DNA from: an uncultured Prevotella sp.
Lineage (GTDB): Bacteria > Bacteroidota > Bacteroidia > Bacteroidales > Bacteroidaceae
DNA length: 64,000 nt
Assembly: GCA_944321295.1 (NCBI GenBank)
Contig: CALUKU010000006.1
Coordinates: 1-64,000 of the forward strand
Direction of reading: 5' to 3'
The translations under genes and the position numbers were made by a program. The notes beneath the pieces are model-generated. The model saw only the letters and a list, made by a program, of their open reading frames with translations, searched no databases and was not told where the DNA came from. Positions 4,915-29,694 of the stretch are shown here, in pieces; within the stretch, counting starts at the first letter, position 1; each line of letters starts with the position of its first letter.

Positions 4915-6021
4915 TTAGTTGTCTGTTTTACGGAAAGTAAAAAATGTTTTTACTTTCCGGAATAAAGCCATAAAAGCAAGAGAAAATACTATAGCAAAAA
5001 TCCAATAATAAACCAGAAGCAGAAAAGACTTACCTGCGGGAGCTGTTAATGATGCAAGATCTGTATTAACTCCAAATAAAGATAATATACATGAACCTAT
5101 TTTAAAACCTAAAAAATGAAGTCCCATTATATAGAATGAATCTTTTCCGCATTTTGACAACAAATGTCCTATATGGCTATTCTCTATTTTCTTAGAAAAG
5201 TAACAGACAACGTATAATGCCATTACAGAACTTACAGTTAATGTTAAAACGTCATTATATTTATTAGAATTCAGCGATACCCCCCCCGAAATTGTTGCAA
5301 TATGATAGATAACAAATAAAGCCATTACACATACATACTTATTACAAAATTGTAATTTTAATCTGTTTTTAAGGATATATCCGCAATAGATGAGCCACAT
5401 TGCCGTCAACGTATTATTAAAACGTGGAATTGTAAAATCGAACAAATTTGTCAAAGTGCAGGATACGATGCAAAAACATAACAAGACTAAACATCTTACC
5501 CATTCTTTGTACTCACTTCTTTTTACCATCCTGTTTACAATCCAGCTAATTATGGATAAGCCACATAATGCCATGAACAATACGTAAACAAACCACATAG
5601 CTCCCAATATGGGTTCTCTACCTGCTAAACAGACAGCCAACAACAATTCTTTTAATGTTTTTCCAACACTATATGCTGTTACAAACTTTCCACCATACGA
5701 AAAAGATTGGCTATAAAAACCAATATTCAACAACAAGTTATGAAGCAATACAGCTGGTATATAAAAATACAGCAAAAGTCTATACAGCGACTTGATCTTC
5801 CCTTTTATAAAAGATACGGGCTGTAGTAAGCGTTCTTCCTTTAAGAAAAAGCCACCTAATAAAAAGAACACGGGAACATGCCATAGTTCACCTAATAATG
5901 TTGATAATGGCAAATACTCGCTGTCATAAAATTGATAATTAATATGAAGCAAGACAACAGAAAGAATTGCTAATCCTTTTGCTATATCAACCCAGCGATA
6001 ACGAACTATTGAAGAGTTCAT
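4915..6021 (-). CDS. acyltransferase family 3 membrane protein (OafA/WecH type)
   Basis: A 368-residue polytopic membrane protein expected to O-acetylate a surface glycan, taking acetyl groups across the inner membrane. The N-terminus RWVDIAKGLAILSVVLLHIN carries the family signature with its conserved His (R/K-x-x-DIAKG-...-LH), followed by about ten hydrophobic segments and the pattern VFFLLGGFFLKEE. The gene contains a run of eight G on the coding strand (5280-5287 on the plus strand as C8) at the Ser-Gly-Gly-Val position, conspicuous in an AT-rich gene; gain or loss of one G would truncate the protein. The gene is intact here. The sugar acceptor is unknown. Confidence 0.85.
   Translation of the reverse strand: MNSSIVRYRWVDIAKGLAILSVVLLHINYQFYDSEYLPLSTLLGELWHVPVFFLLGGFFLKEERLLQPVSFIKGKIKSLYRLLLYFYIPAVLLHNLLLNIGFYSQSFSYGGKFVTAYSVGKTLKELLLAVCLAGREPILGAMWFVYVLFMALCGLSIISWIVNRMVKRSEYKEWVRCLVLLCFCIVSCTLTNLFDFTIPRFNNTLTAMWLIYCGYILKNRLKLQFCNKYVCVMALFVIYHIATISGGVSLNSNKYNDVLTLTVSSVMALYVVCYFSKKIENSHIGHLLSKCGKDSFYIMGLHFLGFKIGSCILSLFGVNTDLASLTAPAGKSFLLLVYYWIFAIVFSLAFMALFRKVKTFFTFRKTDN
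5280..5287 (-). repeat. G8 homopolymer inside the acyltransferase gene
   Basis: Eight consecutive C on the plus strand (G8 in the coding strand), encoding Ser-Gly-Gly-Val. Poly-G tracts of this size in O-acetyltransferase genes are classical slipped-strand phase-variation sites in other bacteria; whether this one varies is an inference. Confidence 0.75.
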
Positions 6022-6076
6022 AGTAGAAAACAGATTAGGTTTAGAATACGGTGTTACATAAAATACTAAAGGAATT

Positions 6077-7291
6077 CTATGAATCTACATTCTCTATCTC
6101 ATGAATATATGTAGCTGCAACTTTTTTATCTGTTAAACCTATAGCGGTTTTAATAGCATTTCGGGATATGTTGGTTAATTCATCATTTGTCATATTGTTA
6201 ATTTTATCTATAATATTTTTTAAAGCAAATGAATCTCCGGCATTACACAAGAAACCGTTCGTACCATTAATTATTACACCATCCATTCCTTCATTTTTTG
6301 ACGCAATAGTTATTAATCCTTTTGCCATTGCTTCTAAATAAACAAGTCCGAATGTCTCCTTTGCGCTTATCATGATAAAGCACTCAGCTTGAGTTAAGAT
6401 TTCTTGAACCCTATTACGATCAATATGTCCCCAAAATGTAACATTATTAACCTTTTTATGTTTTTGAAAGATTTGTTTTGTTGCATTTACCAAATCGCCA
6501 ATACCAACATAATCAATATGCCAATCATTATATGGCAAGTTACATAAGGCTTCTGCTACTTTATGAGGATTTTTTCTCTTTATAAATGATCCAACGTACA
6601 CAAATCGTTTTATGGGAACTGAAACTTCCTTTTTTAAATCTTTAACCAGATAACTTTCAGGAATACCAGAATAACATTGAAATGACGGTGATTTAATAAT
6701 ATATTTATTTTCAAAATTTTTCTTTAACGGAAGGCTTCTATACCCCCATATATTAATACTGTCCAATAAAATTTGCAAATTGCCGCCATATACCTTATTT
6801 AAATTTATACTTTGTTCATGTACAACAATACAACTTTTTGCGCTATATTCTTTTGCAAGTCGATAAACCATTTCAAGATGTGGGTAAAAAAAGTGCGCTA
6901 TAATAATATCAGGCGTAAAGGAATCTTTTTTATTGGAAGATATAATCTTTTCTATTTGTTTATTTATCACACTCTTTTCAACACCAATCTTAGGCATAAA
7001 CTTATATAAAGGGAAACGAACAATCTTAACGCCATCCATTTCATATTCAAAATCCTTTGTGATGCGTTTTGTTGTAATATAAGCAGAACCATTACTTGCC
7101 AATTTGTTTTCTATCAAACTAGCTATTAAATGAAAAATCGGCGAATAAATGGGATAATTAAAAACGACTTTTACATTATACCCCATCCTTACCCATTCTT
7201 TCGCAAAATAATGACAAACATTAGTATTATTAAGCAGATTTAAATCAGGTGCTGGGTATATTGTCGTTAATAGCAAAATATTTTTCCCCAT
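6077..7291 (-). CDS. family 4 glycosyltransferase (GT-B)
   Basis: A 404-residue GT-B retaining glycosyltransferase. The N-terminal domain starts MGKNILLLTTIYPAPDLNLL; the C-terminal GT1 domain shows RFVYVGSFIKRKNPHKVAEAL, FWGHIDRNRVQEIL and the EX7E-like donor motif AKETFGLVYLEAMAKGLITIAS. It probably adds one sugar of the repeat unit at the cytoplasmic face of the membrane; donor and acceptor cannot be read from sequence. It starts 2 bp after the preceding gene's stop on the minus strand, in the AT-rich block. Confidence 0.85.
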   Translation of the reverse strand: MGKNILLLTTIYPAPDLNLLNNTNVCHYFAKEWVRMGYNVKVVFNYPIYSPIFHLIASLIENKLASNGSAYITTKRITKDFEYEMDGVKIVRFPLYKFMPKIGVEKSVINKQIEKIISSNKKDSFTPDIIIAHFFYPHLEMVYRLAKEYSAKSCIVVHEQSINLNKVYGGNLQILLDSINIWGYRSLPLKKNFENKYIIKSPSFQCYSGIPESYLVKDLKKEVSVPIKRFVYVGSFIKRKNPHKVAEALCNLPYNDWHIDYVGIGDLVNATKQIFQKHKKVNNVTFWGHIDRNRVQEILTQAECFIMISAKETFGLVYLEAMAKGLITIASKNEGMDGVIINGTNGFLCNAGDSFALKNIIDKINNMTNDELTNISRNAIKTAIGLTDKKVAATYIHEIENVDS

Positions 7292-24114: not shown

Positions 24115-24957
24115 CTACTTATGTGAAAGCCATGTGTTTATGCTTTTGTATAAGGCTGTTTTATTATAATAATCTTCGGTGAAAGAATCTTTCAGCGAAT
24201 TTGCAATGTTTTGCGCTTTGACATTCTTTCGGCAACAAGCATGGATTTTATGCACTATGGCGTCAACCATATCATGACCGCATACGAGTTTGCGGATTTC
24301 ATCTTTAGCTATCGGATTATTACGCTCAAACTCGTTGACATCCTTTTCACTAAAGTTTATTTTACCCGTATTAGCCGAACGGGCGTAAATCTTACTCAGC
24401 CATTGCGATATATCAGTACATGACATTCCGTCGTAACAACTGCCCACCTTGCATGTATCCTTGAAATTAAGCTTTGCGCCCGTCTTATCGTTCATCCATT
24501 TTATGTACGATAAGTGGTGTATGTCATTTATGGCAGTGTTTACCTTTCCCCAACCATCTTCTACTGAATAATCACGTTCCATCTGCCTTATGAAGCCATC
24601 AGTCAACATCATTGTTTCGATGTCGTGCGTGTCAGTAAGGAACATGTTAGGAATGTCTGGATAGTTTACGCCATTAAGATGATCGAAATCGGCGTCCTTA
24701 ATAGCTATAAGTTTGTCTGAATACTTTTTGTTCAACCCTCTCAGCATGCCAGCCAAACCCAAACAGCCCGAATATTTGGCGCTGAAATGCACATGGTATT
24801 TCTCCTTTGGATAAAAACGTGAATATATATCCTTATCAGAACTGCCTTCAACAACGATGAGCAGCTTGCCGTCAGCGTAATGGGCGCGTATAAGAAGGGC
24901 TATCTCTGCCGAGCGGCCACTTGGATTCAGAACTAAAGCCTTCTGTATGCTGTTCAT
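24115..24957 (-). CDS. DUF4435 TOPRIM-type protein (AriB-like), defence candidate
   Basis: A 280-residue protein with a TOPRIM-like core: catalytic Glu in LLIVVEGSSDKDIYSRF (E37, D41) and a DxD element in LIAIKDADFDHL at about residues 84-95, then THDIETMML. This is the DUF4435 pattern found in AriB of the PARIS anti-phage system, where the TOPRIM effector acts as a nuclease once released by its ATPase partner. It directly abuts the ABC-type ATPase gene (24957/24958), the same order as ariA-ariB. Length is close to AriB. DUF4435 proteins also occur in other ATPase-linked systems, so PARIS-like is a relationship, not a firm name. Confidence 0.75.
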   Translation of the reverse strand: MNSIQKALVLNPSGRSAEIALLIRAHYADGKLLIVVEGSSDKDIYSRFYPKEKYHVHFSAKYSGCLGLAGMLRGLNKKYSDKLIAIKDADFDHLNGVNYPDIPNMFLTDTHDIETMMLTDGFIRQMERDYSVEDGWGKVNTAINDIHHLSYIKWMNDKTGAKLNFKDTCKVGSCYDGMSCTDISQWLSKIYARSANTGKINFSEKDVNEFERNNPIAKDEIRKLVCGHDMVDAIVHKIHACCRKNVKAQNIANSLKDSFTEDYYNKTALYKSINTWLSHK

Positions 24958-26247
24958 TTACTTACAAAGTTCGCACAGGTCATAACATTCATCCCATCTG
25001 TCACCGATAATCTGCGGCGAATGTGTAGCGACAACCACTTGAAGTTTATTGTTTGACGCTATTCTTGACATCATGTTGAGAAATTTGTTCTGCCATGCCA
25101 CATGCAAAGATATTTCCGGTTCGTCTACAAGCAATATCGTATTGTCAGCCACATCGAAAATCATCTCATAAAGCATGACTATCTCGTTTTGCTCGCCGCT
25201 CGAAAGCTTGTTTGCGTCTAAGAAAAGTCCGTCTTTAGTTTTTATTATCAATCCTTTTTCAGGACTGTATGAAATTGTTTTGTTGACAAAATCCAGCGAA
25301 TTGACAATGTTGCTGAAAAGTTTAAGTTTTGACAGAATATTATCATAAGTCTTCAGCTTTTCGTCCATATTCTTTAAATAAACCGACAATATATGCCCAT
25401 GTTCATTGTCGTATGGCTGGATAGTTATATTGCCTACTAAGCCGAATGACTTTAAATCAGCTATTTTTTTGCTTACTTCATCCTTAAGTTTATTATAATC
25501 ATGCTCATCAAAAGACCACACATCTGCCAACAAGCTATCAATCAATTTACTGTCGATATATTGTGACTTGCTAAGAAATGCAAGATTTTCGCCTCTAAGC
25601 CGGTCCTTAATAAGCCGCGACACCTCTGACATCTTAGGCTTACGGATAGTTTCAGTGAACGGGAAATCATCATCTAACTCTTCCTCAATCGGGTCTAACC
25701 TTTGTGCCGTTATAAACGTCACTTTCAGGCTATCCAACATCATGGATATAAAATTAAAGTCCTTATCCTTTCTGAAATATCCGTAAAACGCCTTGTTCTT
25801 CAATGTCTGCTCGTAAAAGCTATCAGAATTTACGTCATATTTTGAAGAAGGATCAATTCCTTGCATGTATTTAACGACATCGTTAATTTCAGTCCTTCCT
25901 AAATTGAACGTATATACAATTTCCTGTGAAGACGTCCAAATGAATTTAACCTCACGAGGAATTGTCAGGTTGTAATCCTCATCGCCCTGCTGTTGCTGAG
26001 CTTTTTCCTCTACCGAGAGGATGTCAATTTTGGCGTCGTTGTCGAATAAGACTGAAATTTTGTCAAAGGGCAAACGATAGAAATAAAAGAAATCTTTTTC
26101 TGACAACCGCTTGATTATCGTAAGGATTGTTGTCTTTCCATAGCCGTTAAGTCCGGTCAAAATCAATGGCGACCGATTGGCGGACAGGCTTATTTCATAA
26201 TTAAAAGTCTTGAAAAGCCCTTTAATGATCAAGGTATCAATTTTCAT
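24958..26247 (-). CDS. ABC/AAA-type ATPase (AriA/PtuA-like), defence candidate
   Basis: About 429 residues from the ATG at 26247 (MKIDTLIIKGLFKTFNYEI); the upstream ATG at 26274 is less likely because it lies deeper inside the HNH gene. Visible motifs: Walker A TGLNGYGKTTIL near residue 31-42, a long SMC-like middle with a Q-rich insertion, the ABC signature LSSGEQNEIVML, Walker B NTILLVDEPEISLHVAWQ and a late H-switch ATHSPQIIG. This is the AAA_15/AAA_21 type used by AriA (PARIS), PtuA (Septu) and OLD/Gabija ATPases. It overlaps the HNH gene by 11 bp and abuts the TOPRIM gene, so three products are translated together. Confidence 0.82.
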   Translation of the reverse strand: MKIDTLIIKGLFKTFNYEISLSANRSPLILTGLNGYGKTTILTIIKRLSEKDFFYFYRLPFDKISVLFDNDAKIDILSVEEKAQQQQGDEDYNLTIPREVKFIWTSSQEIVYTFNLGRTEINDVVKYMQGIDPSSKYDVNSDSFYEQTLKNKAFYGYFRKDKDFNFISMMLDSLKVTFITAQRLDPIEEELDDDFPFTETIRKPKMSEVSRLIKDRLRGENLAFLSKSQYIDSKLIDSLLADVWSFDEHDYNKLKDEVSKKIADLKSFGLVGNITIQPYDNEHGHILSVYLKNMDEKLKTYDNILSKLKLFSNIVNSLDFVNKTISYSPEKGLIIKTKDGLFLDANKLSSGEQNEIVMLYEMIFDVADNTILLVDEPEISLHVAWQNKFLNMMSRIASNNKLQVVVATHSPQIIGDRWDECYDLCELCK

Positions 26248-26608
26248 CTTTACTGATATTATATAGCTTGTCAAGCTTTGCCATCAATGAGTCATTAACC
26301 TTAAACTGCGACTCTTCATGTATATTATCGTTCCCTTCCGCCCTAACCGCACCATTATAAACAGGAAAACTACTGCCTTTCGCTACGTTGTTTTCCCACT
26401 GCATAGGCCTTAGGTTCTGGATGTTATCATCACCGCCTTCAGACAAAGGGTAAACGTGGTCTATTTCCCAACCGAATTTGCTGTTACGGTTGCCGAATTC
26501 CGTTTTCAGAATCAACGCGCCGCAACAATCCTTACGGATAGTATCAGGATCAAAGCCATCAACCCGGATAGCTTTTTCCCATACTGTTGCTATTATTTTT
26601 TCATCCAT
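26237..26608 (-). CDS. HNH endonuclease domain protein (PtuB-like), defence candidate
   Basis: A 123-residue protein (start at 26608, MDEKIIATVWEKAI). The HNH fold is clear: DCCGALI, then WEIDHVYPLSEGG (catalytic DH), DDNIQNLRPMQWENNVAKGS (conserved Asn and NxxK). Earlier ATGs at 26638 and 26620 are possible, but the -7 box at 26643-26636 overlaps the first and leaves almost no leader for the second. HNH-plus-ATPase pairs are the hallmark of Septu (PtuB/PtuA); here the ATPase is followed by a DUF4435 TOPRIM gene instead of nothing. The 11-bp overlap with the ATPase gene implies coupled translation. Confidence 0.8.
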   Translation of the reverse strand: MDEKIIATVWEKAIRVDGFDPDTIRKDCCGALILKTEFGNRNSKFGWEIDHVYPLSEGGDDNIQNLRPMQWENNVAKGSSFPVYNGAVRAEGNDNIHEESQFKVNDSLMAKLDKLYNISKDEN

Positions 26609-26635
26609 CTTTTTGCACATGAAACAAACCACCTG

Positions 26636-26665
26636 CAAATGTAATCATTTTATTTAAAATAACAA
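26636..26665 (-). promoter_or_regulatory. promoter of the HNH-ATPase-TOPRIM operon
   Basis: Minus strand: TTG (26665-26663), 19-bp spacer, TACATTTG (26643-26636), an exact fit to the Bacteroidetes consensus TTG-N19-TAnnTTTG. The predicted transcript start near 26629 lies about 20 nt before the chosen ATG. It implies the operon is expressed independently of upxY. Confidence 0.7.
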
Positions 26666-26890: not shown

Positions 26891-27466
26891 TCACTTCCCC
26901 TTCGGCAGCTTTATGAAATTGCAGTCTACTATGAGCGCGGCGCAGGCGATGAAGTCCTCAATCTTCACGATGAAGCGTTTCTGGCGCTTGCCCTCTATGC
27001 GCTGGTAATAACCCTCAAGGCCTTGGAACACTCCGTCGCCTATGACGACGCGGGCGTTCTCCTTCAGTCCGTGTATTTCGTCGGGCGAAAGGTAGACAAG
27101 CTCGTCGGGCATTGACATGTAGAGGCGGATGAAGTCGGCCATCTGCTTGTCGGGTACTATCACGGGCACCTTGTTGCCCGCAGGCGAGGGACACATCAGG
27201 AATTGTATCAGCTGGTTCATCTGCGACTTCAGCAGGCGCATGCCGTCCTCCGTTGAGCGCACAAAGATGAGGTTGCGTATCACGGGTACGTATCTTACGA
27301 CACGGTTGCTCTTGGCGTCGATGGTTTCGACACGTTTTTTAGGCACGAAACATTCTACGTTGCGCTGCCTCAACGCCTCCTCGGCCATGCGCTCCCTGCC
27401 GTAAGGCGAGCTCATGGCATACCACAGCAACGGCCGTCCGTGCGTTTCACAGGTTGTCGTCATCAA
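26891..27466 (-). CDS. upxY: UpxY family transcription antiterminator (NusG paralogue)
   Basis: A 191-residue NusG-like protein. The NGN domain starts LLWYAMSSPYGRERMAEEAL, with ECFVPKKRVETIDAKSNRVVRYVPVIRNLIFV, and the C-terminal KOW-like part is NARVVIGDGVFQGLEGYYQRIEGKRQKRFIVKIE. UpxY proteins are encoded first in Bacteroidales capsule loci, where they bind the 5' leader and prevent premature termination. Here it heads the minus-strand locus but is separated from ugd by the three-gene defence candidate; no upxZ is visible. A long leader (about 215 nt) with a hairpin precedes it. Confidence 0.88.
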   Translation of the reverse strand: MMTTTCETHGRPLLWYAMSSPYGRERMAEEALRQRNVECFVPKKRVETIDAKSNRVVRYVPVIRNLIFVRSTEDGMRLLKSQMNQLIQFLMCPSPAGNKVPVIVPDKQMADFIRLYMSMPDELVYLSPDEIHGLKENARVVIGDGVFQGLEGYYQRIEGKRQKRFIVKIEDFIACAALIVDCNFIKLPKGK

Positions 27467-27881: not shown

Positions 27882-29694
27882 ATGGAAAAGCAAAAACTTA
27901 CCATTGAAAAACTTAGGACAATGCGTGAGTCATAAGACCATGTAGAGTTCAAGAAATGTAAAGAAGGCAATATGGCATTTAACGGAGGCTCAAAACCGAA
28001 ACCGGCCGACCGCCGTAAGTGTATATTGGGCTACGTTGTAGCATTGGCTAATGAAGGAGGCGGATATTTAGTTCTTGGGCTTGAAGACGCTTATCCACAC
28101 AATGTTGTGGGGACGAAGCAAAATCTTAACAGCCTCGGCGAACTTGAAAGTAAGATTTATAATGAATTGGGCATCCGCACGTTTATATACGAAATATTTG
28201 ACAAAGATGGTAATCGTGTGGTTGTGATAGATGTGCCGTCACGTCCTGTTGGTATTGTCTACACATTTGAAGACGTGCCACTAATGCGTGTTGGCGAAGA
28301 CCTTCTGCCTATGGACCAGCGTACCCTGCTCGCAATATTGCAAGAACATGAACCTGATTTCTCACAAATGTTCTGCGATGATGTCACTATAGATGACCTT
28401 GACCATAACGCCATACGTATCCTTAAAGAAAAAATATTCCCGCAAACAGAAGAATCCAGCCTTTATCTCTTTGCCTGACCAACAGGCGTTAAACGACTTA
28501 AAACTAATAGTAAATGGAAAGGTTACTAATGCTGCGGTATTGTTAGTGGGTAAGGAAGAAATAATCGCCACCCATTTCCCACAAGCCAAAGTAATGCACG
28601 AATACCGCAACGTAGACGGTCAAGAACGCTTTGACAAGCGTATCGTCTTCGGACAACCCTTTTACATCCTTATTGATAAATTATGGGAAACCATTGATGC
28701 AAGAAATGGGAATGTGCCTGTACAGGAAGGGCCGTATCTTTTCGACATACCATTCTTCAACGAACAAGTGATACGAGAGGTTGTAAACAATGCTTTCGCA
28801 CACAGAAATTACCGCATTGGCAGCGAAATAGTAGTTAAGCAGTATCCGAACAAATTATGTGTGATAAGTCCTGGCGGCTTTCCGCTTGGAGTCACCCTTA
28901 ATAATATGCTTACTGTGTCAAGCACGCCACGTAATAGGTTATTGGCTGACGTTCTGGCTAAAACAGGTATAGTGGAACGTTCTGGACAAGGAATGGATAT
29001 TATCTTTCGTCTGACACTCTCAGAAGGGAAACAGAAGCCAGACTACGGAAAAACAGATGACTATCAAGTCACAGCCATTTTGTCTGCAGTTGTCAAGGAA
29101 CCCGCCTTTGCTCTCTTCATACAGGCCATACAACAAGAATTGCCTGAAAACCAAAAACTTTCGGTTTTCGATATAATGACATTTAGCGCTATTAGGGAAG
29201 GCAAACAACCATGGGACAAGGATATTGCAAAACGCCTATATGAACTTGGTTATTTAGAGAAACGGGGTAAAACATCCGCCGTTAGGTATATCATGCCACG
29301 CAGATATTATGAACTCACGGGTAATATGACAGAATACTCAAATCTTATTGACTGGGACGACGAACAAGTATGGGCTGTTTTATTTCCGTATCTCAATAAA
29401 TATGGCAAAGCAAAAAAAACAGACATATCCAAGTTGTTGATGAGCCACATATCCGACAGCCAGTTAAGAAGGGTTATAGAAAGGTTTACTGATAAAGGCC
29501 TTATAATTAAAAGTGGCAAAACTGTAAATACAGTATACACTTTATCGCCAGACTATTTGCAAAGAATTGAAGTTCTGAACCAAGCAACAAAAATAGGTCT
29601 GACACAAATGCTGAATGGGAATATAGGAAGTGACGGAATAAATGACGGAACAAACGTTAAAAGTCAAGCGAATAACGAGGAAAAGCGATCGTAA
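27882..29694 (+). pseudogene. AlbA_2/ATP-binding regulator gene, broken by a stop and a frameshift
   Basis: Two reading frames together encode one protein. ATG at 27882 gives MEKQKLTIEKLRTMRES, then an in-frame TAA at 27933, then DHVEFKKCKEGNMAFNGGSK, the AlbA_2 start, continuing through LANEGGGYLVLGLED and RVVVIDVPSRPVG. At the run of six A (28429-28434) the frame shifts: reading five A joins AIRILKEK to YSRKQKNPAFISLPDQQAL and on to the HATPase_c_4-like part ALNDLKLIVNGKVTNAAVLL ... REVVNNAFAHRNYRIGSEIV ... NRLLADVLAKTGIVERSGQG, with winged-helix segments at the end. The intact family is a DNA-binding/ATP-binding transcriptional regulator. Two independent lesions point to a pseudogene; a sequencing error in the A-run would leave the stop codon unexplained. 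An internal ATG at 27972 could still make a truncated N-terminal domain. Confidence 0.8.

Follow-up and report, generated by a model that had tools for sequence, protein, structure and literature searches.

A candidate three-gene form of the PARIS defence system with an HNH nuclease gene in Bacteroidales

An HNH gene precedes a PARIS-like gene pair in a Prevotella genome

We analysed a stretch of 64,000 nucleotides from an uncultured Prevotella sp. (assembly GCA_944321295.1, contig CALUKU010000006.1, positions 1 to 64,000; hereafter called the window). Its minus strand harbours an operon coding, in this order, for an HNH endonuclease, an ABC ATPase and a DUF4435/Toprim protein, and in the list of open reading frames (ORFs) all three overlap or abut. 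With moderate confidence, we consider this operon to be a Bacteroidales version of PARIS, an abortive-infection system, made up of three genes and including a working HNH nuclease, the estimate covering both statements together. Profile and structure comparisons show that the second gene codes for an ATPase resembling AriA and the third for a Toprim nuclease resembling AriB, both with their predicted catalytic motifs intact. Comparison of related loci indicates that the three genes are inherited together and are not neighbours by chance. This suggests that PARIS, known as a bacterial immune system, also exists with two nucleases, and we class the operon as a new PARIS variant.

As outlined in three papers (PMC12409363, PMC9122126, PMC11455837), AriB of PARIS is held by a hexameric ring of the ATPase AriA until anti-restriction proteins of phages, Ocr among them, set it free to cleave tRNA. 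The trigger of Escherichia coli PARIS is a DNA-mimicking anti-restriction protein. PARIS has been surveyed with a two-gene rule, namely an AAA_15 score of at least 32 bits or an AAA_21 score of at least 27 bits, plus an adjacent DUF4435 of at least 27 bits (PMC9122126).

The ATPase and DUF4435 proteins resemble AriA and AriB

The ATPase gene (24958..26247, minus strand; 429 residues from the ATG at 26247) codes for a Walker A motif GLNGYGKT, a signature LSSGEQ and a Walker B motif LLVDEPE. The DUF4435 protein (24115..24957, minus strand; 280 residues) carries the motifs VVEGSSD and KDADFD. Their Pfam scores, 83.3 bits for AAA_15 (cut-off 32.1), 69.2 bits for AAA_21 and 35.5 bits for DUF4435 (cut-off 27), satisfy the published PARIS rule. 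Two of the three DUF4435 proteins scanned in Pfam from the clade of HNH-linked loci described below score under 27 bits (L047, 26.1; L137, 23.3), the third being that of the window.

PADLOC profiles assign the ATPase to AriA (1e-27), with PtuA of the Septu system a close second (4e-26), and the DUF4435 protein to AriB (2e-12); the AriB profile matches 17 of 19 clade members. When compared with the sequences of solved structures, a profile built from 19 ATPases of the clade gave 1.1e-32 over 409 columns for AriA, as against 3e-16 for PtuA. The solved AriA structures matched are 8ux9 and 8v45 (E values of 1.8e-26 and 1.1e-32 in two profile searches). The DUF4435 protein was modelled with a mean predicted local distance difference test score (pLDDT) of 91.5, and the only PDB match of this model with an E value below 0.001 is AriB in the PARIS complex (8ux9_A; E value 1.8e-4, probability 1.00, template modelling (TM) scores 0.55/0.51, 13% identity in the fold alignment). 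On these profile and structure comparisons, the pair is PARIS-like.

The Walker A lysine, LSSGE and the Walker B residues DE are conserved in all 17 HNH-linked loci, as are E37, D41, D88 and D90 of the Toprim domain. Among NCBIfam families, none of the 25 listed for the ATPase (of 54) reached its cut-off, nor did the one HNH family, and no family was available for DUF4435.

The HNH gene is inherited with the pair

We scanned the genomes of 84,980 species with a pattern derived from a DUF4435 alignment and obtained 132 relatives, the best 80 of which were used. Thirteen of these best 80 have an HNH gene immediately upstream of the ATPase gene. The scans of genomes and viral contigs use short patterns and are non-exhaustive; for instance, the HNH scan of viral contigs missed the HNH gene of L206, a locus caught by the DUF4435 scan. 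An ATPase pattern scan of genome contigs yielded 55 pattern matches with no relative among them, and a DUF4435 scan of phage records gave no match.

Among 393 genomes of the order, nine contain the DUF4435 gene and 17 the HNH gene. Four have both (the Prevotella genome itself, G304, G361 and G399), always as a triad, which occurs twice in G304; the other five DUF4435 genomes fall outside the 17 HNH genomes. The system is rare among near relatives: relatives of the DUF4435 gene are present in three of 100 related genomes, its own included, and within the genus only in its own.

The main tree was built from concatenated ATPase and DUF4435 sequences of 84 loci, 71 of which come from the best 80 relatives. 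Entry required a match for both proteins; nineteen duplicate or short loci were left out, together with L070, L073 and L121, whose ATPase frames are shorter than 330 residues. L026, L076, L078 and L125, each with no more than a DUF4435 fragment of less than 200 residues, were retained, and G163, with a weak DUF4435 match unconfirmed by profile, stands outside the tree. A reduced tree comprises 55 loci, 12 of them with HNH, after removal of 29 of the 84 rows (long branches, near-copies and thinning). Both are quick, unrooted trees. In L125 the DUF4435 gene lies in two frames (5992-6865), and in L055 the HNH frame (860-1150) has no start.

In the main tree, a single branch separates the 17 loci with HNH from all the others (Shimodaira–Hasegawa-like approximate likelihood ratio test (SH-aLRT) support 89), which amounts to a single change of state; as few changes were found in none of 500 shuffles of the HNH labels. 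The corresponding support is 98 in the reduced tree. The named triad carriers are Bacteroidota, mostly titled or ranked as Bacteroidales. HNH presence does not merely reflect taxonomy, since separate Bacteroidota pairs such as L054, L056, L059 and L082 are devoid of the gene. No match to the HNH profile was found in the 67 tree loci without HNH, 58 of which have at least 600 nucleotides upstream of the ATPase gene and nine less. A Vibrio plasmid pair (L014) has an annotated HNH endonuclease gene approximately 2.9 kilobases (kb) upstream, neither adjacent nor matched by the HNH profile.

The HNH and ATPase genes are separated by -14 to +17 nucleotides in all 17 loci, with an overlap of four nucleotides in seven. 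After filtering, 16 loci show a further ORF upstream, the nearest at a distance of at least 92 nucleotides. Chance neighbourhood was therefore rejected on the basis of co-segregation in the tree and of these tight gaps. The three-gene operon and motifs noticed in the first-pass annotation hold up, with the same order and close spacing in 16 other tree loci and in three found later. So does its idea of a PARIS variant with an accessory HNH gene. HNH is carried by L047, which is the nearest homologue detected (54% identical in DUF4435), and by 15 other clade loci, so that the annotation's refuting condition of close homologues without HNH did not arise; more distant pairs lack the gene (e.g. G094, 33% identical in DUF4435).

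Mean identities across 15 loci are 0.31 for the ATPase, 0.25 for DUF4435 and 0.46 for HNH. Distances between HNH proteins correlate with those between ATPases (r 0.75; not reached in any of 5000 permutations); this comparison includes 15 of the 17 linked loci, without the near-copy L084 and without L055. Purifying selection acts on the HNH gene in all four pairs compared. Between the window and L047, the ratio of non-synonymous to synonymous differences (pN/pS) is 0.19 for HNH, 0.34 for the ATPase and 0.37 for DUF4435, and the HNH values of the other three pairs (0.11, 0.06 and 0.20) are low each time.

The triads of L074 and L081 are 98% identical in DUF4435, 77% in the ATPase and 87% in HNH, and therefore parts of the cassette appear to have been exchanged separately.

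The HNH protein has a conserved C-terminal tail

The HNH gene (26237..26620, minus strand; 127 residues from the ATG at 26620) codes for the motif WEIDHVYPLSEGG and matches Pfam HNH_4 with 25.6 bits (cut-off 22). Residues D54, H55, N69 and N77, to which we assign catalytic roles by analogy, are conserved in all 17 linked loci. H55 is present in 10 of 15 unlinked HNH proteins, a count that includes three weak matches (L016, L043 and L044). The predicted structure has a pLDDT of 91, two of five models being confident, and shows after the core a tail made of a beta hairpin and a helix (residues 86-127; 26240..26365, minus strand). All 17 AriAB-linked proteins have this tail, which is shortened or missing in most of the solo, plasmid and phage HNH proteins seen. 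The PtuB profile matches none of 15 HNH proteins, three of them from viral contigs. The closest relative among solved sequences is the HNH domain of Cas8f-HNH, with a weak E value of 9e-4.

Tailed HNH proteins also precede other genes

Tailed HNH genes were also found ahead of different gene sets. In L127 (6771-8446), a ThsB-type TIR gene follows 24 nucleotides downstream, and then SLATT_3/SLATT_1, all on the same strand. In L136 (6176-9862), the HNH gene is followed on the same strand by genes matching NsnA (1e-128), NsnB (4e-95) and NsnC (1e-11), which we take to be Menshen genes; the coupling is less tight here, since they begin 210 nucleotides downstream. In two genomes (L198, 3015-4327; L199, 2524-4058), a tailed HNH gene overlaps the gene of a protein of 306-365 residues with no Pfam family above cut-off, possibly a further two-gene defence unit. 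All four of L128, L202, L203 and L204 have a tailed HNH with a loop insert near genes that by eye resemble UDP-glucose dehydrogenase and epimerase genes, and two of these HNH copies read D-Y instead of D-H. A single contig of G304 carries three tailed HNH genes, ahead of Nsn genes and of two AriAB pairs. In an HNH tree (without L084 and the three weak matches), the AriAB-linked proteins cluster with those of L127, L128, L136 and the viral L168 (support 93/91 for the 20-row set). Judging from these sequence comparisons, the HNH appears to be a portable module.

Further triads and remnants were detected. A family scan gave 15 matches in 14 of 399 genomes and added the intact triads L195 and L196. 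In L194 (2901-3959) and L197 (6075-6719), the HNH gene is intact next to deleted remnants of the ATPase and DUF4435 genes, L197 retaining a piece of the ATPase gene only. Among 13 DUF4435 loci of viral contigs, one has the triad (L206, 2075-8365, on a contig listed as viral), adjoining two genes that by eye resemble those of tyrosine recombinases.

Proposed mechanism and alternative explanations

By analogy with PARIS, the ATPase assembly would keep the Toprim nuclease inactive, sense a phage protein and release the nuclease, which would cut tRNA and stop translation. The HNH protein might be a DNA-directed nuclease made from the same operon as a first line backed up by the AriAB pair, so that the operon would encode both a nuclease that phages must block and an alarm for such blocking. 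That the HNH targets DNA is a guess, for which its weak resemblance to the HNH domains of Cas8f-HNH and Cas9 speaks. We tentatively prefer this first-line role to one in which the ATPase holds the HNH as a second effector; an autonomous HNH nuclease is favoured because the gene heads operons devoid of an AriA-like ATPase and survives beside remnants. It is a more doubtful proposition that the tailed HNH is a portable front-line nuclease mounted on unrelated Bacteroidales suicide modules (AriAB, Nsn, TIR-SLATT and an unnamed partner family), which would make the AriAB operon a self-contained attack-plus-guard unit of a DNA-cutting nuclease and an alarm that causes cell death once a phage blocks nucleases of this sort.

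Several observations weigh against a three-gene PARIS with a working HNH nuclease. The kinship of the DUF4435 protein with AriB is remote (13% identity, TM score about 0.5), and its profile gave three chance-level matches among solved sequences, AriB being absent. The HNH model has as its best Foldseek match the Cas9 HNH domain, weak and not significant (E value 0.14). The HNH protein need not target DNA, since PtuB-type HNH effectors are described as cleaving tRNA (PMC12409363). Its occurrence, intact, beside remnants and ahead of genes without an AriA-like ATPase may mean that it acts alone or does an unrelated job, and in the HNH tree the AriAB-linked proteins do not form a clade of their own (three changes). 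In the quick trees of unspecified root, the support of 89 for all 17 rows is moderate, and L024 and L137 are joining long branches. Nor is HNH always the most constrained gene, with pN/pS of 0.11 (HNH), 0.19 (ATPase) and 0.10 (DUF4435) between L074 and L081, and of 0.06, 0.06 and 0.16, respectively, between L084 and L088.

Other explanations were considered. In one that overlaps the PARIS reading, and whose idea of one sensor for two nucleases was raised in the first-pass annotation, the AriA-like ATPase would bind both the Toprim protein and the HNH protein, the latter by its C-terminal tail, and one trigger would free both nucleases. We keep this rather unlikely idea alive because the HNH has its tail, which is conserved and folded as an appendage in the model, and is tightly coupled to its partners in a co-inherited operon. 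Moreover, ABC ATPases of the same superfamily are described as pairing with the HNH protein PtuB in Septu and retrons (PMC12409363). However, in L127 no ATPase gene lies between the tailed HNH gene and the TIR and SLATT genes downstream of it, the HNH genes of L194 and L197 persist despite largely deleted ATPase genes, and the HNH proteins do not match the PtuB profile. Clade-specific columns are few and weak as well (eight in the ATPase, three in DUF4435), with no clear docking motif in the ATPase. An operon with PtuA, PtuB and an extra Toprim gene, i.e. a three-gene Septu, is very improbable. The near-equal PADLOC scores of PtuA and AriA speak for it, whereas the lead of AriA among solved sequences, the lack of any PtuB match and the presence of DUF4435 after the ATPase in relatives both with and without HNH led us to reject Septu membership. 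The Septu/PARIS hybrid suspected in the first-pass annotation was likewise not borne out, with a narrow margin in PADLOC.

A plain two-gene PARIS with a co-transcribed passenger HNH is unlikely. Although the 67 of 84 tree loci without HNH, from several phyla (with absence observable in 58), indicate that AriAB-like pairs manage alone, the gene occurs throughout the 17 loci that make up its part of the tree, where the mean identities of its partners are as low as 0.31 and 0.25, and is under purifying selection in four pairs. Similarly improbable is that the HNH is not a defence protein but a homing-type mobility nuclease that helps cassettes of defence genes to spread from site to site, polysaccharide loci being an example. 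HNH proteins of this family do occur alone on phage contigs and plasmids, the tailed ones stand ahead of several differing gene sets, and cassettes are located among polysaccharide genes in several loci. Yet in all 17 loci the HNH gene immediately precedes the ATPase gene, overlapping or nearly so, its divergence tracks that of the ATPase, and a common insertion site was not apparent by eye in the flanks listed.

Comparison with known systems

The operon shares with PARIS both core proteins by profile, the ATPase by solved-structure sequence and DUF4435 by fold, as well as the gene order A then B and the conserved catalytic motifs. It differs in that the 17 clade loci add, in first position, an HNH gene whose product has a conserved tail, and the DUF4435 protein of the window is distant from E. 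coli AriB. PARIS has been described as a two-gene cassette or a single fused gene; the arrangement found here is neither, though the published rule permits a third gene. The literature searched, whose coverage did not extend to the two main PARIS structure papers, yielded no description of a three-gene PARIS with HNH, and no match to a described three-gene system.

Septu (PtuA and PtuB) and the PtuAB of Ec78/Eco7-type retrons also combine an ABC ATPase with a small HNH nuclease. In contrast to them, the HNH gene here is upstream of the ATPase gene and its product is weakly Cas9-like, without PtuB match; the ATPase is closer to AriA, and a Toprim gene is present. Retron I-A (Ec78) has a reverse transcriptase and msDNA RNA next to its ATPase and HNH genes; inspection of the ORF list by eye, no reverse transcriptase family search having been made, did not reveal a reverse transcriptase here. 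OLD, Gabija and AbiL likewise couple an ABC ATPase with a Toprim nuclease. Gabija and OLD are defined by both domains in one polypeptide, whereas separate genes code for them here and the Toprim is of the DUF4435 type; when the ORF list was inspected by eye, no helicase gene was seen beside the operon.

Solo HNH proteins of phages and plasmids share the HNH core (33-49% identity for plasmids, 28-56% over the matched part for viral contigs). Unlike the AriAB-linked proteins, they are mostly about 80-110 residues long, without a full tail, a few being longer in other ways; the copies of L168 and L177 are exceptions with a whole or partial tail. No ATPase or DUF4435 match was found among the neighbours listed for 16 viral HNH loci.

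Because this clade has kept its additional, third gene, coding for a nuclease, through long divergence, it can be used to test directly whether a single alarm ATPase runs two nucleases or, alternatively, whether alarms of the PARIS type are supplied together with the nuclease that they guard. In addition, the small HNH family heads several defence operons and can be used to find more, some of them in capsule or exopolysaccharide loci of Bacteroidales.

Operon layout and genomic surroundings

The HNH and ATPase genes of the window share 11 nucleotides, and the ATG of the DUF4435 gene directly follows the ATPase stop codon (gap 0). The HNH start of the ORF list, a TTG at 26638, falls inside the -7 element of a promoter-like site, which makes the ATG at 26620 or that at 26608 likelier. 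For the ATPase, the ATG at 26247 is more likely than the TTG at 26274. The candidate promoter, TTG-N19-TACATTTG (26636..26665, minus strand), exactly matches the pattern that we take to be the Bacteroidales -33/-7 consensus. The pattern has five matches in the window, with 0.87 expected, and five were reached in none of 100 shuffles. A single match, such as the promoter that the first-pass annotation placed ahead of the operon, is only suggestive, since another one falls within the ATPase gene.

The G+C content is 38-41% in the three 1-kb steps across the operon and 45-57% in 10 of the 13 remaining steps between 18 and 34 kb. One flank has a NusG-like gene (26891-27466), and the other, by eye, an exopolysaccharide locus with genes for a UDP-sugar dehydrogenase and a flippase. 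Cassettes lie amid polysaccharide genes in the window and in L047, L052, L053, L084, L088, L125 and L137. Pfam searches on the flanks of seven loci picked as polysaccharide-like found such a neighbour in six, and in L047 a MatE-type flippase. In L137 (3454-5031), DegT aminotransferase and DUF559 are coded within one open frame. Finally, two overlapping frames on the plus strand of the window (27972-29694) look by eye like a frameshift-broken AlbA-type ATP-binding regulator gene.

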